Position numbers and translations under genes: made by a program. From Leishmania mexicana MHOM/GT/2001/U1103 (lineage: Eukaryota > Euglenozoa > Kinetoplastea > Trypanosomatida > Trypanosomatidae): DNA of 64,000 bases. The stretch covers positions 434,001 through 498,000 of the forward strand of contig NC_018334.1 of assembly GCF_000234665.1 (NCBI RefSeq). The letters run 5' to 3'. A model generated the notes under the pieces. The model saw only the letters and a program-made list of their open reading frames with translations. It was not told the DNA's origin and ran no database searches. Every line of letters begins with the position of its first letter. Position 1 is the stretch's first letter. Shown here piece by piece: positions 22,384 to 42,077 of the stretch.

Positions 22384-22776
22384 CTAAGCAGACCGCTGTT
22401 TGCTGCGCATGTACACAGCCATCATCACTGTTACCACACTCAGCAGACTTCCGGCCCGCACACACCAGTTCCAAGTGTATTGGCTGTCCCTCTCGCACGC
22501 CTTCTCGCATAGCAGCTGCAGCTCCTCTATGGAGACAGACTCATCCAGAAACTTCAGCAGCGTGCGCATCGCCTTCTTCGAGTGACCTGCTTCGTTGTAA
22601 GCCTGCGTAATGTCGCGGTTCGCGTACGGCAACAGCAGCTTCTGCCCGTTTGGGTGACGGCGCACAAACGACATGGGCACGCGGTAGGTGCGGCCCTCAT
22701 AGATGTGCCAAATGGACTCCTCTTCCCCGTCCTTCACCTTTGGGGGTGCAACAGTGTGTGTCGCAATGCTCGTCAT
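22384..22776 (-). CDS. tail-anchored cytochrome b5-like protein 4 (HPNG variant)
   Basis: The protein has 130 residues from MTSIATHT. The core reads WHIYEGRTYRVPMSFV, then HPNG with His41, then RDITQAYNEAGHS with His65. Both presumed haem-ligand histidines are present 24 residues apart. However, the nearly invariant second glycine position of HPGG is Asn, and the usual Phe of the AFE motif is Tyr. A helical neck with two Cys (LLCEKACERD) precedes one membrane span (WCVRAGSLLSVVTVMMAVYM) and the basic tail RSKQRSA. The frame has little upstream extension, so the start is well supported. Whether it still binds haem normally is uncertain. Confidence 0.83.
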   Translation of the reverse strand: MTSIATHTVAPPKVKDGEEESIWHIYEGRTYRVPMSFVRRHPNGQKLLLPYANRDITQAYNEAGHSKKAMRTLLKFLDESVSIEELQLLCEKACERDSQYTWNWCVRAGSLLSVVTVMMAVYMRSKQRSA

Positions 22777-25418
22777 GTCGAGACCTTCTGGTGAAGTCTC
22801 TGCTCACGAAGCACGTAGAAAATGTACCGGAGAGCGATACAAAGGGGAAGAGAGACCGTCGCGAAGGGCACAGACAAGAGACCCAACGTCGGTGCTGTCT
22901 GTCAAGCGAAGGAAGGATGGTCGGCTGCACAAGAGAAGTCGCTGGCGAGTGTGCGTGTGTGAGTAGGCGCGTGTGGCAATCCTGGCGCAGGCGAATTCAG
23001 AGCACTTAACCCGCGCGCGCGTCGACGGATTGCAAGCGCAGAAATATGGTGCGAGTGTGACGCCGCCGTGGCGCATTGGAGCGATGCGTAAGGAAGGAAA
23101 TAGCGTAGAGGCGCAGAGAATCCGCAGAAAGAAGAGCGAAGAGTATTTCACCACATCAGTGACATCACCAGCGTGAGAGCTGCGTGCTCAGCTGGCCGGG
23201 TCTTTGCCTGCTGCCTATGGAGCTGACCACCACGACGGCTAAAAGAAAGCCAAGTCGAGAGTGATACACCGCTGCGCGAGAGCAGCGCTCCCACACCACC
23301 GCGCCATGCAGAATGCGCGTTAGGAGGAGAAGATGCGTGCTTTCCGAGTACGCCGTGGAGAGCGCATCCGGGAAGGAGAGAGAGGGAGGCGACGAATGGT
23401 TGCCTCTGCGGCTTTCCCTCGATGGATGCGCCGCTGGTGACTGGTTCTGCAATGGCCCACGCCTCGTCGTTGCTCGCTCACGCTGAAAGAGACGAAAGCA
23501 GGGCAGCGGCGGCGGCGCAACGGGCGCATCACGTCCGTTGTCCGTTCTCTCCGTGTGCGGCGAAGCAGTCGCGCCTCAGAGGGAAAACTCCCGCCTGCTC
23601 TCAGCCCCCTGTGGCTGTGGGAATCCTTCGTGGTCAGAGTAAGCAGAAGGAAGATCCTAGGACAGCGGTGGACGGCGCACCGGATTTCGCCCTGTGTCCG
23701 AGCATCTGAAGCGCCCTAGTTCTGTGGAAGCTCCTGCACGATGACATCCAAGGAGATCCTGTCGCTGGTGAGAGCGGACGTGATGGGGAGCATGGTCCAC
23801 TGAGGATAGTCATAGATACAAACGTGGAGGAAACAGGGAGTGCACCCAACGCAGATGCGAAGGCCTTCGATAAGGGCGTGCCTCGGGAAAGCGTGGCCGA
23901 TGTGGTGGGAGGGGGGAGGGAGGGTGTCGGTACTCGGTCGCCTTTCCCGCAAAGACTGCATCGTGAACACGTGACCCGCACAAAACGGCAAAGTGGGAGA
24001 AAAAGTGGGCCGTGAAACAATCGTTGAGCGGGCACGAGACGAAAAAAGAGGGAGGAGCAGCGCGCGGGGAGTGGGGAGAAGCCAGCAGACGTGCAGACGT
24101 CCGTTCTGGGGGAAGGGGGAAAGGCGGCGGCGAGAGAGGCAGGCGAAAGCCGTTTCCAGCAGCCAAAACCCGCACAAAGAGAGAGAAGGGTGCACCCACG
24201 TGCGCAAGAGATCGATATAGCCAGCGAGTGGAAGTCAAATCCCAACGTCGCCAAGGCCGTCGTGCGATGCGCTCCTCTCCATGTTTCATGTGCTGCCGTA
24301 TAGAGCCGCGACACTGTATGTTTCGCTGCTTGCATCTCTTTCGTTTTTCTTTTCCGTTGCTCACTTTGGCATGGAGGAAGACGGCACACAAAGAATACGC
24401 GGCGAATTACACCCGCAGTGACGCGAGCAGACACCCACGCGGTTTCACTCGGGTGCCAGCTCGTGGAGTTGTTTCGGAAAGGCATCCTGTACGTGTATGG
24501 CGCGCCTGCACGCGAGTACGACACGCCAACTCCGCACGGGAAAAGATGGTACTAAGCGGTAAGAGGTAGTAGTAGTAGGGGGCGGATACGGAGAAGTTAG
24601 GTGAGACGATAACAGGAAAACAATACAAATATATAGATATCTACATAGATAGATATTCCAGGACGGTGGTCAGGCAGACAGCTATCCGCGAGTGCGCACA
24701 TGCACATGCATAGGCGGAGAGCAAGCGCCCCGAACGGTTGGAGGGAGTAGAACGGTGAGCAACGGAAAGGGGGCGTCAGTGACAGCTGAGAGGAGCTGCA
24801 GCCCGGACTTTAGCGTGTGGCATATATCTATGGGGGAGAGTGGCTCGCTTTCCTTGCGGAAGCACCGCGTCGCGGTAAAAGGAGAAGAGAACTGTCATGC
24901 GCAGCGGACGTGTGCACCTGCTGTGCACAGCGCAACCTCTCAAGACGAGCTTGTCGCTCTCCGCGAGAACCGCAACTAGCATGCCCCACGCACATGATAA
25001 AACAACAAGTGATGCAGGCAAGCGCGATAGCGGCAGAGCGGAGCAGGCAAGCAACGGAAGACCGTGACAAGCACAAAAGAGAGGTCCACGCCGCAATGTT
25101 TTGAGCAGAATCCCAAACGCGCGCCGGTAAGCGCAGCAGATGAGGCCGTGGGCGATACCGGAAGCGAAGACGGGATGGCCCAACATGCACGAACAAAGCG
25201 AAAAGAGGGCACATGGCATGCCACACATCACCCCGGCTTTCCCAGTTGTTGCAGGTGGCATGAAAGCATAGAGCACATCATGGCAGCAGCAACAGCAACA
25301 CCAGTCGCGATGGACGAGTAGGGGACACGCGTGAGAGTCAGCGCACCTCGCACATGGTTTATGCCGCCTCTGCTCCACACACGAACAGCATGCAACACCG
25401 AAAACAAAATCCGCCACT
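22777..25418. other. long intergenic spacer between b5-like genes 4 and 5
   Basis: About 2.6 kb. An AT-rich island with GATA-like units lies at about 24625-24660. Minus-strand frames at 23634-24524 and 24776-25462 are long, but their composition is spacer-like and the second overlaps the end of gene 5, so neither is called. The stretch probably holds a long 3' UTR of gene 5 and the splice signals of gene 4. Confidence 0.5.
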
Positions 25419-25826
25419 TCACGCGCGCTGCAGATGACGTCGCAGCGCGTATGCGGCAACACCCATCGCTGCCAGTGTCGTCATCGCCGTGATCAGCGTG
25501 GTTCTCTGGCGCCACCGGCGCATCTCTGTGGTGCAACGACGCTCCTCGTCGTAGCTGTGTGACAGCTTGATCTTGCGTTGATACTCTGCCGGGTTGTAGA
25601 TGTCCCTGAAGCCCTCCTTCGCCTCAGCCTCCTTAAAGGTGTTGAGAAGTGCGTGCGCGTCGGTGGAGTGGTTCATGTCCTCAAAGGCGCTCGTGATGTC
25701 CTGGTTGGCGTACTGCAGGATGTACTCAGCACCGCCAGGGTGTTCGTTCAGCACAAACGACATTGGCACCACAAGACTGGCGCCCCTGTAGACGAGGCGC
25801 ACATAGGTCTCCTCCTTGTCGGACAT
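25419..25826 (-). CDS. tail-anchored cytochrome b5-like protein 5
   Basis: The protein has 135 residues from MSDKEETY. The core reads RLVYRGASLVVPMSFV, then HPGG with His29, then NQDITSAFEDMNHS with His53 (24-residue spacing). A long charged neck (about residues 63-110, including two Tyr in IYNPAEY and HSYDEERR) leads to one membrane span (TTLITAMTTLAAMGVAAYAL) and the basic tail RRHLQRA. The frame continues 33 codons upstream with a sequence that mimics a signal peptide (Leu/Ser/Pro-rich). That part is a polypyrimidine tract followed by an AG (25837-25836) ten bases before the chosen ATG, so I treat it as a trans-splice region. This is the first b5-like gene downstream of the giant gene. Confidence 0.83.
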   Translation of the reverse strand: MSDKEETYVRLVYRGASLVVPMSFVLNEHPGGAEYILQYANQDITSAFEDMNHSTDAHALLNTFKEAEAKEGFRDIYNPAEYQRKIKLSHSYDEERRCTTEMRRWRQRTTLITAMTTLAAMGVAAYALRRHLQRA

Positions 25827-27209
25827 GAAGGGCGGCTGTGAAAGGTGCGCGTCAGCGCGTGTGCACAAACGACTGAGAAGCGAAAGAGAAACCGCCAGTG
25901 GCAGGAGAAGAGGACGGGGCGTCACGTGGCGGAGAGTGTCGGTTGCCTCTTGCTACACTTTACGATCCACTGCTCGCGAATAATAAAAAAATCCGTCTTG
26001 AGCCTTTTCTTTTGTGTGTGACTGCACGGCCCCCACGTGGTGCCGTGGCGGAGAGGCAGAAAGGCGGTGAGGCGGAGAGGCGGTGAGTCGGTGAGGTGGG
26101 GGTACGGCAGGGGGACACGAGGGGTGGGCAAGCACAACGATGCCCTTCGTGTTTGCCCGCGTCATATGCGAATGGAATGCATGGAGAAGGGGGGAAGGCG
26201 GACCATTGTTCGAGAAGAGACGAGAGCACGTACTCGAGGAGGCCGGTGCGTGAGGTCGCAGATGCTGTCATTGCACGCCTACTGCATCAGAGATCTCGAG
26301 TGGGCGACTCACGGAAGCACGGCGGCTGTGGTGCTGCGAAACGGAAGACGAAATCACCCACGGAGAGCAGCATCGCACAGCAGAAAAGGACTTGCCAAGG
26401 TATACGCGTCCGCGGGCCATCACCGTTGCAGCCTACATGCTGCGGCACGTCCGCGGCCCTTTTTTTCTTTCCCGTTTTTCGCCTCCCCTTGTTCCTGCGC
26501 TGTTGTATTTCTCGATTCGGTTGTGCGTGTACGACAGACGTGCACGCCGATGGGCGTCACTCGCACACAAGCGAGGAAGCGCTGTGGCGTAAAAGGAATA
26601 GGGAGAGGCATAAAGGGGGGTGTGGGGCGGCCCAAAAAAACGGAGAGAGACAAAGCGCAACGTGGACAACCGCAGCACACAAAACACGTGATCACGTTGG
26701 AGCCGTCGCCCCTGAACGCTTCTTCCACAGAGTACAGTACAACTCAGGCCGTTTCTGATCGGCACAACAGCGGCGCGCCCCACATTGGAAGATGCAACAG
26801 CAAAAGAGGGGGGGACATCGCCATTACACCACCTCACCGTCCAGCATGGTCGCACATGCCCAGAGCACGCACACACACACACACAGAGAGGAGGGAGAGG
26901 AGGGAGAGGCCCCATTTGAGGACAAAACAAAAGGGCAGGCGTCTTGGAGTGACGCACCGCAGCGTTGTGTGCACTCGTAACGACAACGTGCCAGAGACGC
27001 CACGGAACACGGCAAGAAAAAGGCAAGGCACAGGAGAGCCACAGCCCGCTGACGCGCATCATCAGCGTACGGGCACGACATCACAGCAGAGCTCCCACGC
27101 AAGACGCGTTTCCTCAAACAGGAGCAACAAAATTTGTGCGGCGGCGGGGCCTCTCTCGCTTCCATTTCTGCCTGCGCGTTTCTCTCGTGCCCTCGCCTGC
27201 GTCTTCCCT
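25827..27209. other. intergenic spacer between the giant gene and b5-like gene 5
   Basis: About 1.4 kb. It holds the 3' UTR of the giant gene and the splice region of b5-like gene 5. It includes an imperfect GGCGGTGA-type minisatellite at 26047-26098 and a CA run at 26871-26885. A 448-codon plus-strand frame runs through it into the giant gene but is Arg/His-rich and antisense, so it was rejected. Confidence 0.55.
26047..26098. repeat. imperfect minisatellite with GAGGCGGTGAG-like units
   Basis: Several diverged copies of an 8-10 base purine-rich unit (GGCGGTGA, GGCGGAGA) follow one another. On the transcribed strand this is a C/T-rich tract upstream of b5-like gene 5. Confidence 0.7.
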
Positions 27210-30200
27210 TCAAAAGCGGACGCTGGCGAGATTCGGCCGCGCCTTCTCACACACCTGGCAGTAGAACAACGAGTTTGGGTTGAACTTGCTGCAGCCGCCA
27301 TGTTCCACCGAGCACACCCAGTACCCCTCCGGGCACTCGAAGCCGCCGCCAAACGGAGACCTCTCAGCGCGTCCGCCACCTGACTCCTTCAGTGGACGCG
27401 GGTTTGGTGCCATGCAGATCTCGCACATCGGCTTCGCGCGAGAGTCGTTGATAAACGTGCACACCTCACACTGCCATGGCGCGTCCACACCGTCGTCATC
27501 GCCCTCATCCTCCCCCCCAGCCCTGCCGGCGGCGGCATCGACGGCAGCCAACATTGCCGCATCCTCTGCCTCTCTCACAGACTTTGGCTTCGAGGCCATG
27601 CACATCGAGCACATGTTGCTCGCGATCGGGTTCTGGAATGTGCATGCGTCACACGACCACACAGTGATACTGGCGGACTGCGTCGCAGCTGCAGCCGGGT
27701 GAGGCGCTTGCGCCGCCTCAACCCGTTCGCGCAGCACCTCTGCGCTCAGGGGTGGTATCAAAGCGAAAAGCTCCTCAGCCGAGATGTAGTCCGCTGTCTC
27801 CGCCGAGGCGGCGGCTCCGGGTGGCGCGGACGCAGCGGAACAGCCAACTGCGCCGCGCTTCTGCTGCACAAGGAAGAAGAGCGACTGTGCCACCTCCTGC
27901 ACGCTGAGCGTTTTGAAGACAGCTGGGAAGCTTTCTGTCAGCATCTCCGCCACACGCTCTGCCGAAAACGCAGCAGAACCGCCGCACGCGGAAAACGCTT
28001 GAGAGAGAGCAACAGTGAAGCTGTCGAAGCTGTGCTGCGCCGGCGCCGCCTCGCGGCGCACGCGCTCCGACGCTTTCGGGCGCGCCGCGCGCACCACGAC
28101 CTCCGCCATGTCTTCCATCCCCTGCTGCACCCGCTTGCCGACAGCCAGCTGGCGCAGATACGGTTTTTCAGCCTCAGAGACAAAGAGCACGGCGATTGGG
28201 GCATCCTCCCAGTGGTTGCGACTGCGCCGGCGCACCCGCAGACACTCCATGAAAAAGTGCAGCCGGTCGGACGGCAACATCGCTTCTAGCACCTCCTCCA
28301 ATACGGCAAGCTGCTTGGTGGAATAGAACATGTCGCTGTTCAGGAACCGGTAGAGCAGTACCGCTCTGTCAGCCACGGCGTCGCACGCGCTCGCATCGTA
28401 GCCGCCGCCAGACGAGCTGATCGAGCTCAACTGCATGTGGCGCAGTGCCTGTACGCCTTGGTTGTGCACGACCGCCGAAAAGGGACCGGTGGCGTCCATG
28501 TAGGCGCCGCTCGAGGCGAAGCGCAGCGCAAGGCGGAAGTTCTTCTGCACGTAGCGGGAGTGATGAATGAGCCAGCGCATGGACTCGCCCTCCGCGAGAG
28601 TGAGGAGGCCGGAGCAGACCATCGTCGCCGCCTCGGACGACGACCCGCTGGTGGAGGCTTGTGGGGCAGACTCCGAAAGAGCGGCAGGGGTGGGCACCCA
28701 CTCAAGAAAAAGGAAAACGTTCTTCAGCCGCCGCTCTCCCACGCCATGCCAGTCCAGCCTGAAATAGTTGTCGCTCACGAGGTACTGCGACGACACCTGA
28801 AGCTTCGGCTGGCTGGGTCGAATCTGGAAGCTGTTCAGCTGGTAGAAGCAGCAGCCGTGTGTGGGTCGCACCGTGTCTGCCGCGATCGTGCCGCAGGTTC
28901 GGAGCGTGTCCACTGCCCATCCAATCTGACTCTCGTCGTCGCGCGAAAATGCAGAGATGCGCTGCTCTTCCTGCTCCGCCTCCTGCTCCTGCTCCTGCTC
29001 CGCCTCCTGCTCGTGTACGATCTCCGCGTTCAGGTCCATCGTGTTGTGCACCCCTTCTTGCTCTGCCCCAGTGGCGTCGTTGCCGCTGGCTTCCTTCGCG
29101 GAGGCGCTACTGCCTCCCTCGGCGGCTGCCCGTGAACCCTGAATGCTGCGCCGCATGCGGTCCAGCAACTGCTCCACCAGCCCCTGCGACAAGGCGTCGC
29201 CTTCGATCAGCTCCTGGGAACGCCCCTGCAGGATCTCCTGCAGGTGCTCACTGAAGGATGGAGCCTGGGCAATCCTTCCGGCAACGGGGTATTCGATCAC
29301 CTCCCTGAACTCAGCAATGGCAGCGCGGAGAAGGTCGACAGAGGGGAGCTTCAGCGCCGCATCGGCGATCGCAGCAGATGCGTCCTCTTCCGAACTGGCG
29401 TGTTGGCCCGCCTCAGCCGCGCCGGTGCCCGCTGTCGGTCGTGGCAGGTGAAAGCGCCGGCAGCGCATCCACCCCGTAAAGAGCCCTGCATGTCTGTTCG
29501 CGTACTGAGCATCTTGCAAGAGGTGCGTAACCGCCTTCTTGCGCCACACATTCGCCAGCTCCTGCAGGGAGAGCTTGAAGAACTGCAGGCCCTCAACCCT
29601 CATCGAGTTGAGGAGGAGCCACGCTGGAACGTCCTTGAGCATGTCGTCAGTGCGGTACCGAGACCCCAACGCCTCCTGAATGCGGGAGACCACCTCGGGG
29701 ATCAGATACAAGCACAGCCGCTGCCCCTTGCCAATGCCACGCATGCGATACGCACCCTGCGCATAATCGCGTAAGACGAGATCTTTGCCAAAGGTGATGA
29801 CGGCCACTGCCGTGGACGACTGCTTCACATCCGTGCCGGTCGTGTGCACCTGGTCAAAGAAGGTGAAGCGGCGAGCCAGCGGCACACCGCACTGGGAGAC
29901 CGGAATGACGAGACCGTTGTCCCGCTGCAGAATCATCTGCCGATCCCGCCTGTCGAGAAAGACGACGCCGTCGAACAGAGCTGCTGGCAGCCGCGCCAGA
30001 AGGTAGCGAGCCACCTCCTCGTTGTCCATGTTCGTGATGAGAGCGCCAGCGTCGATGAGGGCTGAGTACGGTGGCTTCGCGGCGGCGATGCGGTCCAGTA
30101 GCCGGAGCGGAGTCCAGCTGTCCGGCAGGACCTCGGCATGGACCACCTCAGGGTTCGTGAGAACCGACAGCACACGTCCGTCACTGCCAGGTTCGTAGAA

Positions 30201-33200
30201 GCACTCACCAAGGTCCAGCGGCAGAATGTTGCTCGGTGTCCCGCTGAAGCCTATCCTCTTTGTGAATAGCATCGAGGAGCCGAGCTCGTGGCCACAGGCG
30301 CTGATCTTCAGTCGCTGAAAGTTCATCGTTCGTGGAAAGATGGTAGAGCACAGGTAGTAGTGGATCACCTCCGGCACACCGTGCAGCAGGTGGTAGAGCG
30401 ACTGCATCTGCGCCTTGTCCGTCACTTGCAGCTGCGACAGCGGCACACCAGCGCGCTCGAATGAGCGAAGTACGTCCTCGCTGTCATCTGCGACGTTCTT
30501 CTCGGTGGCCGCAGCAGCGGCGGTGGTGGCCACCGCCATCTCTGTCTTCTTCGCTGCGGCCGCGCGGTCCGAGGAACTCAGACGCAGCCAGTGCTTGTAC
30601 AGTTTTGCCGCCGGGCGGTGCTCCTTCGGCCCCGCCTGCCGCGCAAAGTCTTGCTTCAGCTGTGTCACGAGCTCCTTCACATCCTGCAGGCGCAGTCCCT
30701 CGTAGCGGAAGGCGAGGATTGTAAGTCCGATGACCACATCCGGATGCGCGAACTCAGAGCTGCGGCTCGGCACGTCCTTCGCGACGAAGGGGACAGCCGT
30801 CATCTTCCGACTGTACGGGATCCGCGCTGAATCACCGCTGAGGGCCAGGTCGTTCGGCTGCAGCACGCCAAAGCTGACCCGATCGATCTTGGCGAGCACA
30901 TGCGGCAGCAAGCGATGCAGCCAATCGTGTGCGAGGTTCAGCAGCTGCAGACCGTAGTGAGGCATGTACGCATTCAACTCGCGAGATACGCAGCTTCCCG
31001 CGTCGTCGCGCTTCACCGGGGAGAGCAAGAACGGCTTGGTCTTCTCGGCAAATACATCCGAGGACACGTAGGCCCAGTTCTGGCGCTCCTGATCTGGAAG
31101 GTGGTCCATCAGATGCTCGTGCAGCCACAGCTGCAGCCACGGCACGAGCACCGGCAGCAGCTGCTCGACGTAGTAGTGGCCGGGGTCGAGCAAGACCAAG
31201 TGCGGCTCTCGCTGAAGGGCGCGCTGGCGGAAACCGGTGAGAATGGCGCTGCGGATTGCGCTCAGAGCGTGCCGCCGCTTCTCCTCCTGAACACCCCTCA
31301 TCTCCGCCAGTGATGAGTCACCCAAGCGCACCGAGCTCGCAATCTGGCTAGACGAGCCGCACTCGAGCTGCCGCTGCACGTCCTCGCACGCTCTCCCCTG
31401 CTGACTCGAAAAAATGCCATCCAAGAGGTGGATAGGCAGCTGCCAACGAGGGCCGCTCATGTCGATGGGGTGCTTGAGACCGATCGGGAAGTTGAGCTCC
31501 GACCGCAGGGGGTGCAGGAGTACATCGACTTCGTCCATGATCAGCACGCCACGCTTCCACAACTCCAGAATCGGAGTGATGGCGTCCGCCAGGGCGGACC
31601 GCTCCATCATCTTGCGACGCAATGCCTTTATGTGAGTAGCATAGCGGTCATCTGCCGCCTCGTCCAGCTCCATGTCTTCCGTGGGCACGCTCTCCATCAT
31701 GTGCAGCTGCTCGATCCCCTTCAGGAAGAGCGACTTGACACACTCTGGTGCGGCGATCACCACTGAGCGGTCTTCCTCAGCAGATTTCAGCTTCTGGTAG
31801 AGCAGCTCCACTCCATCGCTCGTACCCTCCTCATTGCTACGGTCGAACTGCACCGTGTAGATGTGCTTCGTCACGACGACGCCGAAGCAGCGGCGCAGGA
31901 TGCCACGCGTCTGCTCTAGCAGCGCCGTCGGCATCACCTGCGTGATGAGCTGCTGCCCATCAGCGAGGATGAGGGCCAGCAGCGGTCCCACGACGGTGGT
32001 CTTACCTTGGCCCATGATCATCTGCTGTACACGCGACTGACCTTCGCGGATGTTGCGCACAAACCACTCCACCATCTCCACCTGGCGGGCACGCAGGAGA
32101 ATGTTGAAAAGGAACTCGAAGACAAGAAAGCGGGGGTCGAGGGTCGCTCTGAAGGAGCTGCTGCTTGCTTCGCCTGCCGCTCCCCCGGAACCCGACGACG
32201 CCGCCGAGGAGGAACAGTCGGGATGGATGTGGACGTACGTGCGACGTGCCGTCAGCGTATCGAGAGCAGCGTTTGCCAGCTGCTGCAGCCGGCTAGTCAC
32301 GGTCCGGCGAGTGTCCTCTGAGAGAGAGACGCATCTGTCCGACGCACCTGTCGCCTCCTCATCACTTGTGCCAGTCCTTGCGTTTGTCATCGTTGGCGCT
32401 GCTGCTGTGAGCTGTTGGAGTACCGGGGGATCGATCTCGAGCGAGAAGTGCTGCACCAGCTCACGAATGCGTGCCGCGCGGGCCTGCACAGTGCCCTTGC
32501 TGCCAGAAGCTGTCATCTCCGCGTGAGGAGGCACGACACCGCGAAGGTGCCCGAGCAGCTCCAAGAACAAGAGGAGCTGCTGCACCGCCTGCGCCGCCTG
32601 CTCCGCAAAGTACATGCGGTTGCTTAGCAGCATGAGAAGAATGAGCTCCGCCTGAATCTGCTGCAGGGATCCGTGAAAGAGGTTCTCGGCCTTGAGGTCT
32701 CTCTCGAGGGTAGTGCTCAGCAAGCCGGCACACAGCCACTCAAGCGGTACGGCAACACGCGAACGCTCCGCTCGCTGCAGGTAATGCACCAGTCGTCCGT
32801 GATCAAGCGACTGTGCCCCAGCAGCGGAGACGCCGTTGTCGCTGGGAGAGGGCCCCGTAGACGACCTTGGGTGAACATCATTCGCCAAAGACAGCAGCGA
32901 CGAGCGCAGACGCATGACACGATCGGCGTCCTGCCCTCCCAGCGCGTGCAGCTGCCGCACACAGTCGCCCAGCACCGTCACCGCCGTCGTGAGAGACGCT
33001 GTCATGACCGCCACATATGGGGTGGTCAACAGCTCCCGTACGATGTCCTTGGAGAGGCACTGGAAGTAGCGGGGCCGCTGAGCCTGCTGCTGGCCACGGA
33101 AGCGCATGGAGTCCTCCTCCAGACGGTCCAGCATGTTCTGAGCCAGTGGGGTGCGAGAGAGGGGATGAGTCCGAAGATCAAAAGGCAGCACAGACATCGA

Positions 33201-36200
33201 CGGAGACAGCGGCGGCGCAGCTGGCTCGCCCTCAGCGATGACGCCTCGGGCCAGCTGCAACGAACTCAGCGGCTCGGTGCAAAGGGCCTGCAGCGAAGAG
33301 CGGCGCAGTGCCGCTGCGGCCGAGTCGTTCTCCGCGTTGCCATTCTCGAAGTAGTCGACTGAAATGTCTGCCTCATACAACTCCACCTGATCGCGGCCTG
33401 TGTCGCCAGGCACCACGCGGCCACGCAAGTGGTCCCACATAAGCACGGTGACCTTCTGGCTCGCCGGTGTGCGCAGTCGGCTCATCTGGCGCGCCTCGCG
33501 CACTGCCTCGGTAATGTGGTCCGTCTTAAAGTGCCTCTGCGCCACGCGGTGAATGGTGTTGAAGATCTCCGGAATGGTGCCGCGCCGCCGGCGCACCGCC
33601 GTCTCCTGGTCCCCGATGATTGACCCATGAGAGTGCTCATTCGCCTCGTACTCCTCCGTCAGCGACACGCCGCGGGCGAGGATGTAGCGCTCCGCGTTGT
33701 CCGCCGGCGCGGGCCAGTCCGTGTGTGGGAACATCTCCATCATCTGCAGCACCGTGCTGCACCAGGACGGTGCCATCTCTGTCTCACCCCCCTGCTGCTC
33801 CTCACGTCCCCAACGAGAGTGCCGCAGCTGGAACCAGCGCGCGAGCAGCTGCGAGAGGGTGACGCCGACGTGCTCCTCGCCAATCATCGGCACCACTGTG
33901 TTCCGCTTCATGCAGTAGAGAAAGTAAAACCCCTTCTTCGTGTTTGCCCCACCTTCCTCATCCATGAGCAACTGATCTGTCCACAGAAACTCGACAAGTT
34001 TTTCGCCCTTGACCATCTCTGGGCTCTGCAGCTGATAGCAGACGCGCTTTAGCTTCTGCGGGGCGATGCGTTCCCATGGGTACAGCAGCAGCCGCTCCCA
34101 CGGAAACCGGCAGCGCTCCAGTGCGGGAGTTTGCACAACCACCGGCGCCGTCGCCGACTTGCTTGATTGCTTGTGCTCCAGCTTCATAAACCCGGCATAC
34201 AGCTCGAGTTGGCTGCGCACCATTGGGGCCGCCTGAGCACAGCGCTTGAGCAGGTCTAGAACCTCACCGCGCGACAGCCGGCAGTCCTCTGCCACGTGGT
34301 GCTTCGTCATCAAATAGTCCGACAGCTCGGTCGCCAACGGCCACTGGTAGGTGTTCAAGCTGTACTGCACCGCGTGAGCCAGCTTCAGCCGCACCGCGCA
34401 CGCGTCGGGGAAGCGGTCCGCCATGGTGCGCTCGAACAGCGCGAACATAAACCCCTCCTCGGTGGAGAAGCTGCTGTCCGTGTAACAGGACTCGAGGGTG
34501 CGCATGGCGCCTGCGTAGTGCTGTGTCGCGCACTGCATAACGGCGTAGTAGAGCGAGGCCGACAGCGACGGCGGCATCACAAAGCTGCTGCTGCTGTGCA
34601 CGACGTAGACGTAGAAAGGGGACGGCACCGCCTCCCTCCACGTGTAGGACGACCGGTCGAAGAGAAGCATCGGATTAAACGGATCGTCGCCGATCTTCAT
34701 GGGCGCAAAGTCGTGGTTCGGGCACAAAAAGGCGACCTCGCGCGTGCTGTTGCAAAGGAGCAGGCACTGCTGAAACGGCGCCTGTAGCGTCCGCAGCTGC
34801 CGCCAGCGAGCCGCGTGGAAGTCGTCCCACTCGGCGAGGCGCCAGCCCGGCTGATCTGCCAGGAACAGTCGAGCGCGACTGCTTGCGCCGTCTGTGCTCG
34901 TGTAGAAGCGCACACGCAGCCGCGGCATCTCAATCAGCTCTATTTGGACATAACTTCCTGCGTTGGTCGTGTCCTCCACGCGCAGCGAGTGTGCCGCACC
35001 TTCGTCCGCTGAAGCAGCATCGCACTTTGCCTTGTCCGCAGCTGAGCAGCGACGGCCCCACGCCAGAATATGAGAGCAGTCCTCGATGCGCGTGAGCATC
35101 TGCAGCAGATGCGAGAGGTTCCGGCAATGCAAAAGGTTCACCAGCACGTAGTCGCACGTCTCCACTGCCCGCTGTGTCTTCGCTACCATCTGCGCTAGTT
35201 GGTGCCTCTTGCCACTACCCTCTTCGCCGCCGGCCTTCGTATCCTTCACCATGGCGAGCAGCGCATCGGCGTTTGCAGTGGAGGAAGCCCATGTCAACGC
35301 CGACGCAATGTCGCCTCGAGCCTGCCGCAGCAGCTGCACGCACACGCCCTTGGGAAGATGGGAAAGTGCCTCATGGAGCAGCGCCACATCGGCGTCCGCG
35401 ATCCGCATTGGGGCACTGCCGCTCTCGTCTTCCTCGTTTGCGTGAAGAGCGTCCGTCGACAGCTCCATCGAGCCGTCGACACTCGTGGCGCGTTCCAGCA
35501 TAAGGCGGTGCGCGGCACCCTGGGCCTCCACCATGGTCTTGGTGCGCGCCGCATCGGCTGCTGCGTCAGCCGACGATGCCGCCCGCTCCGCCTCGACGAT
35601 GGCAGAGTGACCCTTGTCATTGCGGCGTACCACCACACACGCCGACGATGTTGCCAGTGGTGAGGCAGCCTCACCAACTGAGCCGCTACCACGTCGACCT
35701 ACGTGCAGGTGAACCTCGATGCTGTAGTTGAACCAGTGGTCCATCACCTCTCCCCGCGCCGGCTTGCGCTTTCCGGCGCCGGACGCGGCCGCGTCCGGCA
35801 GGACGGAGGCAGTCTCGTTCTCCTCCGAGAGCGGGTACCCGCGCAGCACATCGTCCTCGCCATGCCACATGAAGAACGACTCCAGCAGCACACTTGGAAT
35901 CAGCCCCTGCAGCAGCCTCGCCGGAATGTACACCTCACGGCCACGGATTGCCTCATTGTAGCGATGGATCTCTAGCGTGCTTTCGTTGAAGATGCGCCTC
36001 TTCAGCTCGCCGGCCTGAAACGCCGTCACCGCCAGCGACTCGCGCGTGCGTGCCCCTGTCAGCAGCGCCATGCTGTGCAAGCAGTAGTGCTGGTTTGTGC
36101 TGTAGACAAGCGAGCGGTACAGCTTGCGGGCGTGCGGCACGAGGTTGTATACTTCGATGCGTGGCTGCGGGTAGCGGTAGGCTACGGCCTCCTTCCACGT

Positions 36201-39200
36201 TGCCCGATCCGTCTCGCCTTCGTACTGGGGGGCGTCGTTCATGAGGAAGCGCATCTCGTAGTGGTGCAGCGCAGGCACCATCAGGCGCTCCCCCTCCTCC
36301 TCGTTGCCGGCGTCGCTGGCTGCCACCGTCGACAGCGCAGGGGCCAGAGGGTAGAACCGCATCCCATTCGGGAACGCGGCTCGCAGAATGTCTCGCAGCA
36401 TGTTGACAGCCCACCGCTCCTCCTTGTGCGGCCAGGGGGTGTCGTCCTCCACGGCGATGACACGATCGTAGGTGACGTTCTCGAAAAGAGCGCTCTCGAC
36501 CGACTCCGCTGGCCAGTTTCCGGCAATCACAAACGGGTGATGCACACCTTGATCGGACAGGTCCGGCGGTGCCGTCCATTCAATCACGTCGTACGGCGTG
36601 CCTACCAGATGCACCCAGTGCCGGTGCTCGTGGCGACTCACCAGACCACACTGCAGGGCGTCCTTGCCCAAGATGTTCTCAAAGTCGGTGAAGTGCGACA
36701 TGCTGTCCGGGACGGGCTTCAGCTCGTCGTTGCGCCAAAACAACTCGCACGTCTGAGCATGGAAGAAGAGCCCGCTCGACGCCGGCCCTTTGTAGACACC
36801 AGGAGCCGAGATGGACCACAGCGGCGTTTCCTCGCGCTGCGGACAGCGCTCGTGAGGGGCGTGGCCCTCGTCATCGTCGTCCATCATAGCATCCAGGTTC
36901 ACGGCGCTTGCGCGGGCTGACACGCTCGTAGAGCGGCTGCGGCGAAGGCGCCTGCGGTCGTGCAGTGTGCCTGGCGCAAGCGCACCACCTTCAGACTCGG
37001 CGTGGTCGCGGAGAACGGACTGAACGATCGACAGGAGCACAGTGCCGCGCCGCTGCGGCGTCATCTCGTCCAGAAATGACGTGATCAGATGGTGATCCTC
37101 CAGCAGGTCGCAGAAGAGCACATTTTCCGGCACATCGGCTGGCGGCAGCTTCAGCAGCTTCGACTCAGTCGTACTGCTCGGGTCGCTGTGTATCAAGTTT
37201 GGAATGCGCACCGTGTCGTTGTAGTTGCGGCTGCGAATCTGCACAAAGACAGCGCGGCGACGTCCGCCACTCATCATAAGCTGCTTGCCCTGCTCAAGAA
37301 GTTCCTTGGAGACGCGCGACGTGTTCAAACCCTGTGCCTGCAGGAAGCGCAGCATCTTTTCCTCCGGCGTGAGTAAGTTGTCTCCCTCCTGGGCCGCGAG
37401 CTGGCTGCGCTGCATGCCCATGCCAAACCCGTGGCGCGCTCGCACAAACGCATACGACCGGAGCATGCGAATCAGGTGCGCATGCGGGTCCTCCGCAAGC
37501 GAGGCGCTGGTTGCCCCGGACCGCAAACTCCCACGCTGCCCACCACCCGCGCCAAAAGACGCCGACGACGGCAGTGCGTCGTACCCTTTCCATAGCGCGC
37601 GGTCCACCCGACTCATGTGGGCGTGAATGACGCACTGCGTCGGCGTGTCGGTGTTCTCCTCACTCTCCTCCAGCCACGCCCACAATAACGGCTGCACCGT
37701 GGTGACAAAGAACTGCAGAAAGTGGCGGTGATACTCCTCTATGACACCCAAGGCGCACTGTCTGCGGCGGCTCTCCTCAGCCTCCTCGCTTTCCTCCGTC
37801 TTTTGCGAGGCAGCCGGTGCCGTGCGGGAGGCCTCCGCCTGCCGCTCCCGCTGCTGGTGGGCAATGAAGCGGCAAAAGGAAAGCACATCACACAGCAGCC
37901 CGACGACAAAGAGGACGTAGGAGGCATTACTGCTGTACACGGAGCTGGGACCAAGCTCTGTGATGCTCTCCAAGAGGCTCCGCAGGGGGCGAAGCACGCT
38001 TGTCGGCGCGTGCGTCAGCTCGCTCATAAGCAGCCCATACGTGGTTCCAAGGCAGTCCTCGTAGTTTTGCTGGCTCAGGTCGCCGCGTAGCCGACGCAGC
38101 TCCACCGTCTCGCGCTGCTCCTTGCTCAGCCGCATAGGAACGGAACGGGGATCCGCGTGGCTCAGCACGGCCGGCGAGGCGTACGCAGCCGGTTCGAACA
38201 GCACCGCACGCAGCACCTCTTGCACTTCGTACACAAACAGGTATGTATGGCGGTCCTGCGAAGCGAAGAAGTCAAGGACGAGCGGGATCCGCACATACGG
38301 CGCGGTCAGGCATGATAGCAGCACCTCCGACTCTTCCACATTCATCGTGCCGGCAAATGTCGGCAGCACCTTTGCGTGCAGCACGTCGTCCTCGGTGGGG
38401 TGGTCCACCTCAATCATTCGTGACACGTCGATTGGCGAGTGCAGCGCCAGGCCCTCGCCGTACATCACCTCGCGGTCGCCAAAGCCCTTGACGGCAATGT
38501 CAGCAATATCCATGTCACGCCCACGCACCATCAGGCACTCCCACCGCGGCGGTGCTGGGCGGGTTCGCCATCCGGCGCTCATCTGCCGCCCCGGTGCGTC
38601 CTCCTCGAACGAGATGCGCCACGAGGCGAGTGCGTCGAGCTCCTTGCGGCGGTGCAGCAGCTGTGCATCGCGCATTTCCATGGTGCCCATAAACTTCGCC
38701 AGTAGCGTCATGTCTCGCATCATCCCAAATGCCGGATGCTCCTTCGCCAGCGGTGAGCGATTGCTGCACAGCCACTCCATCAGCTTCTCCATCTCCGACG
38801 AGCCACCCCCAAAGAGGCCCCCGGACTGCTCCAGTGAGTACCCCGCGTTGGCCAACACTGATTTGAGGAAGTCGACGGTGTGGCTGCCCTTGAAAAGCTC
38901 CAGCTTGTCAGGCATCCGCAGGTCGAACAGCTCGTGACCAGGCCGCATCTTCTGCTGCTCCTCTATGTACCGCAGCATGGCGGAGCGAATCGGGAGCAGG
39001 TGCGGGCGAGTCAGCTGCAGTGCCGCTGCAACGGACGTAAAGGCAACGTTCTGCTTGCCCTGCGTGGTGGAAAGGAAATAGCCGCAGCCGCCACCGGTGT
39101 TCAGCAGCATGGAAATCATGCGGCACTTGTCGCTGCCTTTCACCTGCCGAAGAATGGCATCGAAGACGAGCAGCATGTCCATCGACATGAGGCACCGCTC

Positions 39201-42077
39201 CGCATCGAAGCTGCGAGTCGGCGTCTCGACAGCCTGCCAGGCATTCACCAGCGACAGCATGAGGTAGTACACGCACTCCAGCATCGTCAGTTGCGGGTCG
39301 GTGGCTTGTGGGTGCGGCACCACACCTTCCTCCCCGGCCGGTGGCTGGAGCGCCGGTGGAATAATGTCCTCTGTATAGAAGCTAGACACGCACCACCGCT
39401 CCTCTTGCGGCACGGCATCGATGGTATAGCTCGCGGGCAGGGGCACAGGGATCAGCGTGGAGAAGATCCACGTGATGAACTCGATAATCTGCAGCTGTAC
39501 GGCGACGCGAGAGGCGGTGCCGCTGTTGCCGGCGCGCCTCCACAGCATCTCCACGACGCTTCTCACGCGCGGCAGGAGCGCGAACAACTCGGCGTAGTTT
39601 GTTGCCTTTGCCAGGTCATTGATGTCAGGCAAGGACGGAACGGACGACTGGAAAGCTGGGCCGTAGTACGCGGCGACCGACACCTTGGGGAGGAGCTCAG
39701 CGTTCTGGAAGACACCTTCACGAGCAGCGTCGATGGGCTCCTGCACCATGGCGTCCACCGTACGCTGCGGACATGACGATACTGTGGATACGCCACCCGT
39801 GACGCTTGCAGCGCTCGCCGTCGTGCTGGTGCGCACCTCGCTGGCTGCCTGAATCAGCTCCTGCACGTCATCCTGCGGAAGCGCGTCAACCACTGCCTCG
39901 ACGGCGTGCACGAGCTCCACAACGTGTTGCACCACGGCATCACTGCCAGCGACCGGAGGCTGACCACGGTCCAGTCGCTTCTTCGTGTGGTGAGCCAGCT
40001 GACTGGCACCAACGCGTAGAAGCTGCACGTCTGTGGCAGAGAGAGGGACCGCGCCTTTCCATGGACCATCCGGGAATTGAGCCGCCTCCGGGTCGGACTG
40101 AAGCGCTGAAATGCCCTGCCGGTGCAGTAACTCTCCGTCTCTCTGGAAGACGAGAAGCTCCGGTACTTTGACCAGCTCCATCGCGTTGAGCACGTCAACA
40201 CACGGGTATGTAGCGCGCGGAAAGTCGAAGAGGGCACAGTGCTCCTCGTAGTCATCCTGCGTCTCGTCGCAGCTGAGGAAGATGACCTCGACGGTGTCGG
40301 GGCCGCACTTCTGCTTCATCACTGTGACTGCCTCCGCCAGCAGCGTCGACGTCTCCTTGCCGCTCGGGGCCCTCAGGCTCCCGACAAACAACAGCACCAT
40401 CTTGTCGCGGAAGTCGGTGTCGGGTAAGATCTTGTTCTGCTTGTCCTTGATGTACACCCGGCTGTCTGTGAGACGCAGCCACACAGCGCTCAAGGACAGG
40501 TTGGCGGTCGTGTCATGGATGCCGGCTGCCTTGAGGCGATCAAGCGCAGCACGCAGCTGAGCGTCCTTGCTGCTCGGTGGCGGCGACCTAGATGCCGTCT
40601 GCGCGGCCTGGAAACTGTCGGGGCGTGTCACGGGAGTCGGGTTGGACAGAAAGCGGCGCGAGTAGCGCGAGAGGTCCTCAGCGGCCCGCGCAAAGAACTC
40701 GTACTTGAGCACGTACTTGATGCGCTTCTTCTCGAGAGCCGTCAACGCAGGGTAGTACTGTTCTAGGATATAGCAGAAGGCGGTGATGACGGATTTGACG
40801 CCGCTGGAAGAGCTGCAAATGGGGCTCGCCGCATTACGGTAGATGAACGGTGTGAACGGCGAGTCGGTCGACGACGCAGGCGAGGGCGACATCTGCTGCT
40901 CGCTATCCGCTGCGCCGCCTGTCATCTGCAGAATCATCTCGGTGGTGAAGCGGGTGGTCGTCAGATGCAGGGAACTCGCTTGGCCACTCCTGTTTGTGTT
41001 CACGTCGTCATCGCGGTGTCGCCCCTCTGGCAGCTTCTCCACCAGCCACGGCAGCAACACATCGTAGAACACTTCAGCACGGATGAACTCCGACTGGTTC
41101 TGCGGGTCGTTGCGCCGCATCCACAGCGACAGCAGCAGCAGCCAAAACGTTTTGTCCTGCAGCCGAGTCGATGACACGTCTTGGAACTTGAGAATGGGGC
41201 AGCTCATTATCTTCTCCGCCGTCTGCCAGCGCGGGTGGTAGCCCTGTCCTTCGCTGCCGCGATTGACGACGACAAAGTCAAACACCTCAGCTGCCCTGCG
41301 GTGCACAAGGAGAAACATAATCGTGTACGACTGAGTGCCAATCCAGCCAGATGGGATCATCGTCCACTCCCCGGTCGGCAGACTCGTGATGCGATGCACA
41401 CACCTGCCCACCACCTCCAGAACGGTCGCCGGCTGCACCGCCTTGCTAGCCTCTACCGTGAAGTCGTAACAGGAGCGGATAGCGCCGTGTGCGCGCTGTA
41501 TGGCGGTGCGCAGATCCATAGGGATGTCCTGCAGAAAAGGATGAGACACTTCGGCGGCACCTCTCTGGCCCAGCGCCTGTAGCAGCTTCGTGCTGGCGGC
41601 GGACGGGTTGGGCCTACTGCCTGCGCCGAGGGTATTGAGACGGCAGAGAATGACATCCATGCAAAGCAGTGTCAGGAGCGTCGTGCCACCCTCCAGGGGT
41701 TCGCCGCGGCCGGCCACGTACGGGTCCGCCAGGAAGCCGCCATACGCGGGCAGGCGCCAAAAATGGTAGGGCAGGTTACGCAGCCGGCGCTCTCGCTCCT
41801 CCTCCTTCTTTTTCTCCTCGGCCGACGGCGCGTTGGCCTTGACGACCTCCACTGCTGCCGACCCGACGAGCATCAGCTTCGTCTTCTCCTTGATCCCCAG
41901 GGCGGACAACAACGTGTCATCCGGCTTCGCTTGCAGGTTTGGCTTGCCCAGCAGCTTCTGTAGAGGAGGAAGGACATTGGTGGCATCGTAGATGGCTGCC
42001 TTGAGGGTTCCCAGCGTCGCATCCTCCGGCACCTCGATGTCGTGCTTGGCAGAACCAAACTTCACTTCAATGCGCAT
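27210..42077 (-). CDS. giant protein: ubiquitin-like domain, degenerate thioredoxin-like segment, DUF3638/DUF3645-type P-loop helicase-like core, NZF-like zinc fingers
   Basis: The protein has about 4955 residues in one uninterrupted frame, starting at MRIEVKFGSAKHDI, where a ubiquitin-like fold (residues 1-75) begins at once. Around 530-680 lies a tryparedoxin/thioredoxin-like segment (DKMVLLFVGSLRAPSG) that lacks the redox CxxC. Near 2225-2265 is a possible UBA-like helical segment. Lys3359 sits in a Walker A motif MGQGKTT, residues 3515-3518 are DEVD (Walker B), and near 4110 a helicase motif VI-like AYRMRGIGKGQ occurs. This is the layout of the poorly studied DUF3638/DUF3645 family. A Gln/Glu-rich linker lies near 4350-4372. 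Three RanBP2/NZF-like zinc fingers close the protein (about 4803, 4866, 4920). The first two contain CTF, the Thr-Phe dipeptide linked to ubiquitin binding in NZF fingers. A ubiquitin-related role is an inference. A 234-codon upstream extension is low-complexity and was excluded. Confidence 0.9.
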   Translation of the reverse strand: MRIEVKFGSAKHDIEVPEDATLGTLKAAIYDATNVLPPLQKLLGKPNLQAKPDDTLLSALGIKEKTKLMLVGSAAVEVVKANAPSAEEKKKEEERERRLRNLPYHFWRLPAYGGFLADPYVAGRGEPLEGGTTLLTLLCMDVILCRLNTLGAGSRPNPSAASTKLLQALGQRGAAEVSHPFLQDIPMDLRTAIQRAHGAIRSCYDFTVEASKAVQPATVLEVVGRCVHRITSLPTGEWTMIPSGWIGTQSYTIMFLLVHRRAAEVFDFVVVNRGSEGQGYHPRWQTAEKIMSCPILKFQDVSSTRLQDKTFWLLLLSLWMRRNDPQNQSEFIRAEVFYDVLLPWLVEKLPEGRHRDDDVNTNRSGQASSLHLTTTRFTTEMILQMTGGAADSEQQMSPSPASSTDSPFTPFIYRNAASPICSSSSGVKSVITAFCYILEQYYPALTALEKKRIKYVLKYEFFARAAEDLSRYSRRFLSNPTPVTRPDSFQAAQTASRSPPPSSKDAQLRAALDRLKAAGIHDTTANLSLSAVWLRLTDSRVYIKDKQNKILPDTDFRDKMVLLFVGSLRAPSGKETSTLLAEAVTVMKQKCGPDTVEVIFLSCDETQDDYEEHCALFDFPRATYPCVDVLNAMELVKVPELLVFQRDGELLHRQGISALQSDPEAAQFPDGPWKGAVPLSATDVQLLRVGASQLAHHTKKRLDRGQPPVAGSDAVVQHVVELVHAVEAVVDALPQDDVQELIQAASEVRTSTTASAASVTGGVSTVSSCPQRTVDAMVQEPIDAAREGVFQNAELLPKVSVAAYYGPAFQSSVPSLPDINDLAKATNYAELFALLPRVRSVVEMLWRRAGNSGTASRVAVQLQIIEFITWIFSTLIPVPLPASYTIDAVPQEERWCVSSFYTEDIIPPALQPPAGEEGVVPHPQATDPQLTMLECVYYLMLSLVNAWQAVETPTRSFDAERCLMSMDMLLVFDAILRQVKGSDKCRMISMLLNTGGGCGYFLSTTQGKQNVAFTSVAAALQLTRPHLLPIRSAMLRYIEEQQKMRPGHELFDLRMPDKLELFKGSHTVDFLKSVLANAGYSLEQSGGLFGGGSSEMEKLMEWLCSNRSPLAKEHPAFGMMRDMTLLAKFMGTMEMRDAQLLHRRKELDALASWRISFEEDAPGRQMSAGWRTRPAPPRWECLMVRGRDMDIADIAVKGFGDREVMYGEGLALHSPIDVSRMIEVDHPTEDDVLHAKVLPTFAGTMNVEESEVLLSCLTAPYVRIPLVLDFFASQDRHTYLFVYEVQEVLRAVLFEPAAYASPAVLSHADPRSVPMRLSKEQRETVELRRLRGDLSQQNYEDCLGTTYGLLMSELTHAPTSVLRPLRSLLESITELGPSSVYSSNASYVLFVVGLLCDVLSFCRFIAHQQRERQAEASRTAPAASQKTEESEEAEESRRRQCALGVIEEYHRHFLQFFVTTVQPLLWAWLEESEENTDTPTQCVIHAHMSRVDRALWKGYDALPSSASFGAGGGQRGSLRSGATSASLAEDPHAHLIRMLRSYAFVRARHGFGMGMQRSQLAAQEGDNLLTPEEKMLRFLQAQGLNTSRVSKELLEQGKQLMMSGGRRRAVFVQIRSRNYNDTVRIPNLIHSDPSSTTESKLLKLPPADVPENVLFCDLLEDHHLITSFLDEMTPQRRGTVLLSIVQSVLRDHAESEGGALAPGTLHDRRRLRRSRSTSVSARASAVNLDAMMDDDDEGHAPHERCPQREETPLWSISAPGVYKGPASSGLFFHAQTCELFWRNDELKPVPDSMSHFTDFENILGKDALQCGLVSRHEHRHWVHLVGTPYDVIEWTAPPDLSDQGVHHPFVIAGNWPAESVESALFENVTYDRVIAVEDDTPWPHKEERWAVNMLRDILRAAFPNGMRFYPLAPALSTVAASDAGNEEEGERLMVPALHHYEMRFLMNDAPQYEGETDRATWKEAVAYRYPQPRIEVYNLVPHARKLYRSLVYSTNQHYCLHSMALLTGARTRESLAVTAFQAGELKRRIFNESTLEIHRYNEAIRGREVYIPARLLQGLIPSVLLESFFMWHGEDDVLRGYPLSEENETASVLPDAAASGAGKRKPARGEVMDHWFNYSIEVHLHVGRRGSGSVGEAASPLATSSACVVVRRNDKGHSAIVEAERAASSADAAADAARTKTMVEAQGAAHRLMLERATSVDGSMELSTDALHANEEDESGSAPMRIADADVALLHEALSHLPKGVCVQLLRQARGDIASALTWASSTANADALLAMVKDTKAGGEEGSGKRHQLAQMVAKTQRAVETCDYVLVNLLHCRNLSHLLQMLTRIEDCSHILAWGRRCSAADKAKCDAASADEGAAHSLRVEDTTNAGSYVQIELIEMPRLRVRFYTSTDGASSRARLFLADQPGWRLAEWDDFHAARWRQLRTLQAPFQQCLLLCNSTREVAFLCPNHDFAPMKIGDDPFNPMLLFDRSSYTWREAVPSPFYVYVVHSSSSFVMPPSLSASLYYAVMQCATQHYAGAMRTLESCYTDSSFSTEEGFMFALFERTMADRFPDACAVRLKLAHAVQYSLNTYQWPLATELSDYLMTKHHVAEDCRLSRGEVLDLLKRCAQAAPMVRSQLELYAGFMKLEHKQSSKSATAPVVVQTPALERCRFPWERLLLYPWERIAPQKLKRVCYQLQSPEMVKGEKLVEFLWTDQLLMDEEGGANTKKGFYFLYCMKRNTVVPMIGEEHVGVTLSQLLARWFQLRHSRWGREEQQGGETEMAPSWCSTVLQMMEMFPHTDWPAPADNAERYILARGVSLTEEYEANEHSHGSIIGDQETAVRRRRGTIPEIFNTIHRVAQRHFKTDHITEAVREARQMSRLRTPASQKVTVLMWDHLRGRVVPGDTGRDQVELYEADISVDYFENGNAENDSAAAALRRSSLQALCTEPLSSLQLARGVIAEGEPAAPPLSPSMSVLPFDLRTHPLSRTPLAQNMLDRLEEDSMRFRGQQQAQRPRYFQCLSKDIVRELLTTPYVAVMTASLTTAVTVLGDCVRQLHALGGQDADRVMRLRSSLLSLANDVHPRSSTGPSPSDNGVSAAGAQSLDHGRLVHYLQRAERSRVAVPLEWLCAGLLSTTLERDLKAENLFHGSLQQIQAELILLMLLSNRMYFAEQAAQAVQQLLLFLELLGHLRGVVPPHAEMTASGSKGTVQARAARIRELVQHFSLEIDPPVLQQLTAAAPTMTNARTGTSDEEATGASDRCVSLSEDTRRTVTSRLQQLANAALDTLTARRTYVHIHPDCSSSAASSGSGGAAGEASSSSFRATLDPRFLVFEFLFNILLRARQVEMVEWFVRNIREGQSRVQQMIMGQGKTTVVGPLLALILADGQQLITQVMPTALLEQTRGILRRCFGVVVTKHIYTVQFDRSNEEGTSDGVELLYQKLKSAEEDRSVVIAAPECVKSLFLKGIEQLHMMESVPTEDMELDEAADDRYATHIKALRRKMMERSALADAITPILELWKRGVLIMDEVDVLLHPLRSELNFPIGLKHPIDMSGPRWQLPIHLLDGIFSSQQGRACEDVQRQLECGSSSQIASSVRLGDSSLAEMRGVQEEKRRHALSAIRSAILTGFRQRALQREPHLVLLDPGHYYVEQLLPVLVPWLQLWLHEHLMDHLPDQERQNWAYVSSDVFAEKTKPFLLSPVKRDDAGSCVSRELNAYMPHYGLQLLNLAHDWLHRLLPHVLAKIDRVSFGVLQPNDLALSGDSARIPYSRKMTAVPFVAKDVPSRSSEFAHPDVVIGLTILAFRYEGLRLQDVKELVTQLKQDFARQAGPKEHRPAAKLYKHWLRLSSSDRAAAAKKTEMAVATTAAAAATEKNVADDSEDVLRSFERAGVPLSQLQVTDKAQMQSLYHLLHGVPEVIHYYLCSTIFPRTMNFQRLKISACGHELGSSMLFTKRIGFSGTPSNILPLDLGECFYEPGSDGRVLSVLTNPEVVHAEVLPDSWTPLRLLDRIAAAKPPYSALIDAGALITNMDNEEVARYLLARLPAALFDGVVFLDRRDRQMILQRDNGLVIPVSQCGVPLARRFTFFDQVHTTGTDVKQSSTAVAVITFGKDLVLRDYAQGAYRMRGIGKGQRLCLYLIPEVVSRIQEALGSRYRTDDMLKDVPAWLLLNSMRVEGLQFFKLSLQELANVWRKKAVTHLLQDAQYANRHAGLFTGWMRCRRFHLPRPTAGTGAAEAGQHASSEEDASAAIADAALKLPSVDLLRAAIAEFREVIEYPVAGRIAQAPSFSEHLQEILQGRSQELIEGDALSQGLVEQLLDRMRRSIQGSRAAAEGGSSASAKEASGNDATGAEQEGVHNTMDLNAEIVHEQEAEQEQEQEAEQEEQRISAFSRDDESQIGWAVDTLRTCGTIAADTVRPTHGCCFYQLNSFQIRPSQPKLQVSSQYLVSDNYFRLDWHGVGERRLKNVFLFLEWVPTPAALSESAPQASTSGSSSEAATMVCSGLLTLAEGESMRWLIHHSRYVQKNFRLALRFASSGAYMDATGPFSAVVHNQGVQALRHMQLSSISSSGGGYDASACDAVADRAVLLYRFLNSDMFYSTKQLAVLEEVLEAMLPSDRLHFFMECLRVRRRSRNHWEDAPIAVLFVSEAEKPYLRQLAVGKRVQQGMEDMAEVVVRAARPKASERVRREAAPAQHSFDSFTVALSQAFSACGGSAAFSAERVAEMLTESFPAVFKTLSVQEVAQSLFFLVQQKRGAVGCSAASAPPGAAASAETADYISAEELFALIPPLSAEVLRERVEAAQAPHPAAAATQSASITVWSCDACTFQNPIASNMCSMCMASKPKSVREAEDAAMLAAVDAAAGRAGGEDEGDDDGVDAPWQCEVCTFINDSRAKPMCEICMAPNPRPLKESGGGRAERSPFGGGFECPEGYWVCSVEHGGCSKFNPNSLFYCQVCEKARPNLASVRF
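28966..29018 (-). repeat. coding Gln/Glu repeat in the giant gene
   Basis: Imperfect CTC/CTG trinucleotide repeats on the plus strand encode a Glu/Gln-rich linker (HEQEAEQEQEQEAEQEEQ). The linker lies between the helicase-like core and the C-terminal part. It is likely a flexible or helical spacer and may vary in length between strains. Confidence 0.85.

Follow-up and report, generated by a model that had tools for sequence, protein, structure and literature searches.

What might a Leishmania protein do that joins ubiquitin-related modules to an ATPase-like core in a single chain of 4955 residues? The question is raised by a gene in a 64,000-nucleotide stretch of Leishmania mexicana MHOM/GT/2001/U1103 (contig NC_018334.1, positions 434,001 to 498,000; here called the window), from a genome of 32.0 Mb in 545 contigs. 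A preliminary description, made from the sequence, had proposed an ATP-driven machine that handles ubiquitin signals. We place the gene product in a family of giant superfamily-2 ATPases, and our preferred reading, to which we give a probability of roughly 0.45, is that it reads ubiquitin and pulls or threads a polypeptide. We consider the broader claim, of an active ubiquitin-reading ATPase of superfamily 2, likely to hold. The family is widespread among eukaryotes but has been studied little, which makes the function of the protein worth testing.

The reading frame and its motor core

The gene runs on the minus strand from an ATG at 42077 to a stop at 27210 with no internal stop, while the sole plus-strand frame translated across the same interval contained many stops. 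Orthologues of similar length were found in L. infantum (4946 aa) and L. donovani (4831 aa), both with 95% identity over residues 3250-4350, and in L. panamensis (89%, 4961 aa) and T. brucei (56%, 4942 aa). Support for the ATG comes from the orthologues of L. infantum and T. brucei, which open with the same MRIEVKF as the L. mexicana protein. The single open frame of about 4955 residues described earlier, with its strand unstated, is thus real. Of 1045 proteins scored, 255 passed E 0.001 as relatives, and all counts given below out of 120 refer to the best 120 of these 255, whose core identity to the Leishmania protein was 40-95%.

The superfamily-2 motifs (Walker A and DExD, then V and VI) came in order, and the P-loop core, which had been called helicase-like, was predicted as a two-lobed superfamily-2 fold with two RecA lobes (Table 1). 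The earlier proposal came through the computational checks named for it, on this fold and on the two termini discussed below. The MGQGKTT, DEVD and RMRGIGKGQ segments reported before were all present in frame. DUF3638 and DUF3645, suggested for a hidden Markov model check, both exceeded their Pfam cut-offs (31 and 25 bits) in the one chain. The strongest conservation fell in the motor, which would hydrolyze ATP, in a 34-sequence alignment that took 33 of the 120 best-listed relatives. The DUF3645 stretch at aa 3763-3775 was conserved, yet its predicted local distance difference test score (pLDDT) was <50 (model residues 469-481). Beyond the motor, at 28920-29024 (aa ~4352-4386), we observed an acidic EQEAEQEQEQEAEQEEQR segment, a predicted helix with pLDDT <50, of which several residues were conserved in the 34-sequence alignment.

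The automatic UniRef name 'ubiquitinyl hydrolase 1', carried by many of the 120 relatives, would make the protein a deubiquitinase, and some Cys and His residues are conserved (e.g., C2599, H2494, C3959 and H4078). However, C3959 and H4078 sit within the ATPase core, and no Pfam protease domain was present in the query or among 25 of 43 families for 11 members; the assessment of a protease fold applies to the stretches folded, with 2659 of the 4955 residues lying outside them. We therefore regard a deubiquitinase as very improbable, and the automatic name may mislead.

Ubiquitin-related and thioredoxin-like modules

The C-terminal end was of the NZF type, as had been proposed. The RanBP/NZF finger scored 35.6 bits in two stretches (Pfam cut-off 27), and two fingers matched the pattern WxCxxC(T-F)xN...CxxC, both with TF. 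The T-F dipeptide marks ubiquitin-binding NZFs. An NZF pattern occurred in 113 of the 120 relatives, giving 241 fingers of which 115 had T-F, and in none of 120 reversed or 600 shuffled control sequences. A third finger, a variant overlooked earlier, had its pattern in 78 of the 120. Also overlooked was a three-helix UBA fold at aa ~2223-2271, which in Leishmania falls below Pfam detection. Ubiquitin on the target would be gripped by the UBA domain together with the NZF fingers.

At the N-terminus, the claim of a ubiquitin-like start stood by one measure and fell slightly short by another: the ubiquitin-like domain of UBLCP1 was matched at E 3e-6 in a search of PDB sequences, but the Pfam ubiquitin match (24.3 bits) lay just below its cut-off of 25.4. 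Polyubiquitin chains outranked UBLCP1 in the PDB search by summed repeats, no single repeat being significant. The UBLCP1 domain is a proteasome-docking domain, and the Leishmania module may likewise dock the protein to the proteasome or to another ubiquitin receptor. A ubiquitin-related module (UBL, UBXL, UBA, NZF or AZUL) was flagged by Pfam in 87 of the 120 relatives, all such domain flags having been entered by hand from the match listing.

We also detected a Thioredoxin_8 domain missed in the preliminary description (46.1 bits, cut-off 27). A thioredoxin-like domain, flagged by Pfam in 76 of the 120 relatives, raises the idea of a redox or ubiquitin scaffold in which the nucleoredoxin-like domain and the ubiquitin readers organize partners and the motor is a nucleotide switch only. 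The great size of the protein and the occurrence of WCxxC in 27 of the 120 relatives, several of which retain WCPPC, WCGPC or WCEPC in this domain, are in agreement with it. On the other hand, the CxxC active site was absent from the Leishmania domain in the alignment, where the redox role has probably been lost in this lineage, and the motor motifs are strongly conserved. A scaffold is thus improbable, though less so than a deubiquitinase.

Fold and sequence profile of the motor

The nearest solved structures to the predicted motor were the SecA protein translocases: the first 16 SecA rows ranked clearly above all nucleic-acid enzymes in fold, with longer alignments. The alignment used for the fold (A3) comprised 62 of the best 120 of 261 proteins, and a further alignment (A6) had 18 rows. 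SecA is the protein-threading engine of bacteria. Because the predicted fold is closest to SecA in its lobes, its insert and a helix of ~50 residues, we favor a polypeptide as the substrate; the motor would spend ATP to pull on the target, most likely threading or unfolding it.

Sequence comparison weighed against this choice. With hhalign, the core scored 0.8% against 30 SecAs, which was not significant, and against 43 SecAs the core, first lobe and second lobe scored 1.5%, 4.8% and 0.3%. The values against 30 DEAD-box helicases were 45.2% for the core and 0.3% for the second lobe, while the first lobe reached 75.3% (P 2.5e-5, 91 columns). A motif filter had been passed by 43 of 59 SecA loci and 30 of 30 DEAD-box loci. 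Pfam ResIII, moreover, was weakly matched in 2 of 11 diverse members. SecA has an alpha/beta cross-linking domain after Walker B; in our model, read without superposition, no such domain was seen, residues 243-625 holding no strand of at least 3 residues. Since no SecA profile match was significant and the DEAD-box control scored better, membership of SecA was rejected and we kept only the term SecA-like fold. The family is therefore a superfamily-2 ATPase of its own, nearest SecA in fold and not in sequence. The earlier label 'helicase-like' suits the superfamily-2 fold and the closer helicase profile, but it is too narrow, as the closest solved folds are SecA. When the core alignment was run as a profile against the PDB, the result was uninformative: EF-hand proteins came back, we think because some alignment members carry EF-hands. 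NCBIfam and PHROGs searches gave no useful match.

A rival reading is a ubiquitin-guided remodeller of nucleic acid, its motor working on RNA or on ubiquitin-bearing ribosomes with the NZF and UBA modules as readers. ASCC and RQT, ribosome-splitting helicases with ubiquitin readers, would be its models. The longer and higher-ranking SecA fold alignments speak against it, as does the T-F dipeptide in the fingers, and apart from ResIII and the fingers no nucleic-acid-binding family appeared among the 25 of 43 families for 11 members. We consider this remodeller possible but doubtful, and retain polypeptide threading as the preferred reading.

Distribution, surroundings and related systems

Among the matches listed were proteins of kinetoplastids, oomycetes, the choanoflagellate Monosiga, the amoeba Pelomyxa, the labyrinthulid Hondaea, the dinoflagellate Durusdinium, Thecamonas and the chlorarachniophyte Amorphochlora. 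Nine matches to the motor model at E 0.001 or better came from giant viruses in a viral structure library, and seven had DUF3638 or ubiquitinyl hydrolase as their name; Harvfovirus, Fadolivirus, Hyperionvirus and, with four entries, Hokovirus were represented. Since that library holds giant-virus DUF3638 proteins, we judged insensitive a pattern scan of viral contigs, in which 79 stretches matched and none was a relative by tblastn. A corresponding scan of bacterial and archaeal genomes matched 29 stretches, of which 2 were relatives. Distant bacterial members were found in 6 of 369 genomes over the Pfam cut-off, or 8 of 369 at E 0.001, within the class of one Gammaproteobacteria metagenome-assembled genome, and in 4 of 11 genomes within its order. 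Their open frames spanned 3213-4201 codons, with up to four per genome. These giant DUF3638 genes were L003 (162-11498), L005-L010, L101-L105 and L108-L110; GMTGT was present in L006 and L109, and one of the giants, from a genome of 1.3 Mb, has an ankyrin-repeat gene as its neighbor. P0119 (L002), filed under 'Anaerolineaceae', had 42-43% identity to the Leishmania core; its contig is probably a misbinned eukaryotic one and was excluded from the bacterial members. The family is widespread and probably ancient.

Table 1. Features of the giant gene, with coordinates in the window
Feature	Residues	Coordinates	Strand	Basis
Whole gene	4955 aa	27210..42077	minus	frame and orthologues
Ubiquitin-like domain, nearest that of UBLCP1	1-73	41859..42077	minus	Pfam and PDB sequence matches
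Thioredoxin_8 / nucleoredoxin-like domain, without CxxC	559-649	40131..40403	minus	Pfam 46.1 bits, alignment
UBA-fold domain	~2223-2271	35265..35411	minus	fold
Motor core as folded	3295-4440	28758..32195	minus	AlphaFold2 pLDDT 81.9, predicted template modelling score 0.82
DUF3638	3309-3555	31413..32153	minus	108.9 bits; second search gives same place
Walker A MGQGKTT	3355-3361	31995..32015	minus	sequence
Walker B DEVD	3515-3518	31524..31535	minus	sequence
DUF3645, within helical insert	3755-3786	30720..30815	minus	56.7 bits
Motif III-like GFSGT	3943-3947	30237..30251	minus	sequence
Motif V-like HTTGTD	4078-4083	29829..29846	minus	sequence, alignment
Motif VI-like YRMRGIGKGQ	4110-4119	29721..29750	minus	sequence; RMRGIGKGQ starts at 4111
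NZF 1 (CTF)	~4807-4831	27585..27659	minus	Pfam, sequence
NZF 2 (CTF)	~4868-4893	27399..27476	minus	Pfam, sequence
Third, variant finger, longer first knuckle	~4920-4945	27243..27320	minus	sequence, relatives

Adjoining the gene, positions 15424-27209 form nearly 12 kb with no minus-strand frame of at least 300 codons. Same-strand neighbors encode an M20 peptidase (2719-3936), an alpha/beta hydrolase (Hydrolase_4, 5481-6734), a leucine-rich-repeat protein (13519-15423) and an H+-pyrophosphatase (47198-49606).

The phrase 'undescribed system' is fair within the literature searched, but the family is already catalogued in Pfam. In the open literature examined, outside which most subscription papers lie, DUF3638 is mentioned and no more, and one paper states that its molecular mechanisms are undefined (PMC12615304). 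Searches on SecA and ubiquitin showed nothing on the DUF3638/DUF3645 family among the matches listed. Amoebophilus effectors are reported to join ubiquitin-system domains to 'SecA-like helicase-related domains' (PMC3482391), which may be a related observation. A trypanosome 'nucleoredoxin' is gene 10.3970, a different gene (PMC9464253). The axonemal Tb927.8.8000 (L. mexicana counterpart LmxM.30.0090) could not be tied to the giant gene and was not used, and the text of a Leishmania VCP interactome paper contained neither 'LinJ.31' nor 'LINF_31'. Among the papers listed for presumed Leishmania gene numbers, none carried those numbers.

If the motor threads polypeptides, the family would be an unrecognized branch of ubiquitin-directed protein remodelling in protists and giant viruses. 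Even if the substrate is RNA, ubiquitin-reader modules and a superfamily-2 motor in one chain open the function of a DUF to direct testing, since polypeptide and nucleic acid are clearly distinct alternatives.

Compared with other DUF3638/DUF3645 giants (PF12340, PF12359), the Leishmania protein likewise has both domains above cut-off; it differs in its thioredoxin-like domain lacking CxxC and its UBA below Pfam detection, whereas EF-hands, AZUL or clear UBAs occur in other members. It shares with UBLCP1 the N-terminal ubiquitin-like domain, but Pfam matched no phosphatase domain in it. Like ASCC and RQT, it couples a superfamily-2 motor to ubiquitin readers, although there the readers are separate subunits and here they lie in one chain. 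DEAD-box, DinG and SNF2 enzymes have the two RecA lobes and motifs Ia and Ib, and DEAD-box helicases match the first lobe by profile, but their fold scores were lower and their alignments shorter than for most SecA rows. SecA is characterized by DEVD, a GxSGT/TGT-type motif III, a GTD-type motif V and a long helix after lobe 2. The predicted Leishmania motor has all of these, the two RecA lobes and a large insert after Walker B, and differs in the helical nature and length (~375 residues) of that insert, its ubiquitin modules, its giant size and the lack of a significant profile match. We tentatively suggest that a SecA-type polypeptide-threading motor aimed by ubiquitin has persisted in eukaryotes, probably from their last common ancestor onward, as one chain of 4000-5000 residues that certain giant viruses and a small number of Gammaproteobacteria carry too. 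Next to Cdc48/p97 and the proteasome ATPase ring, it would form a third class of unfoldase directed by ubiquitin.
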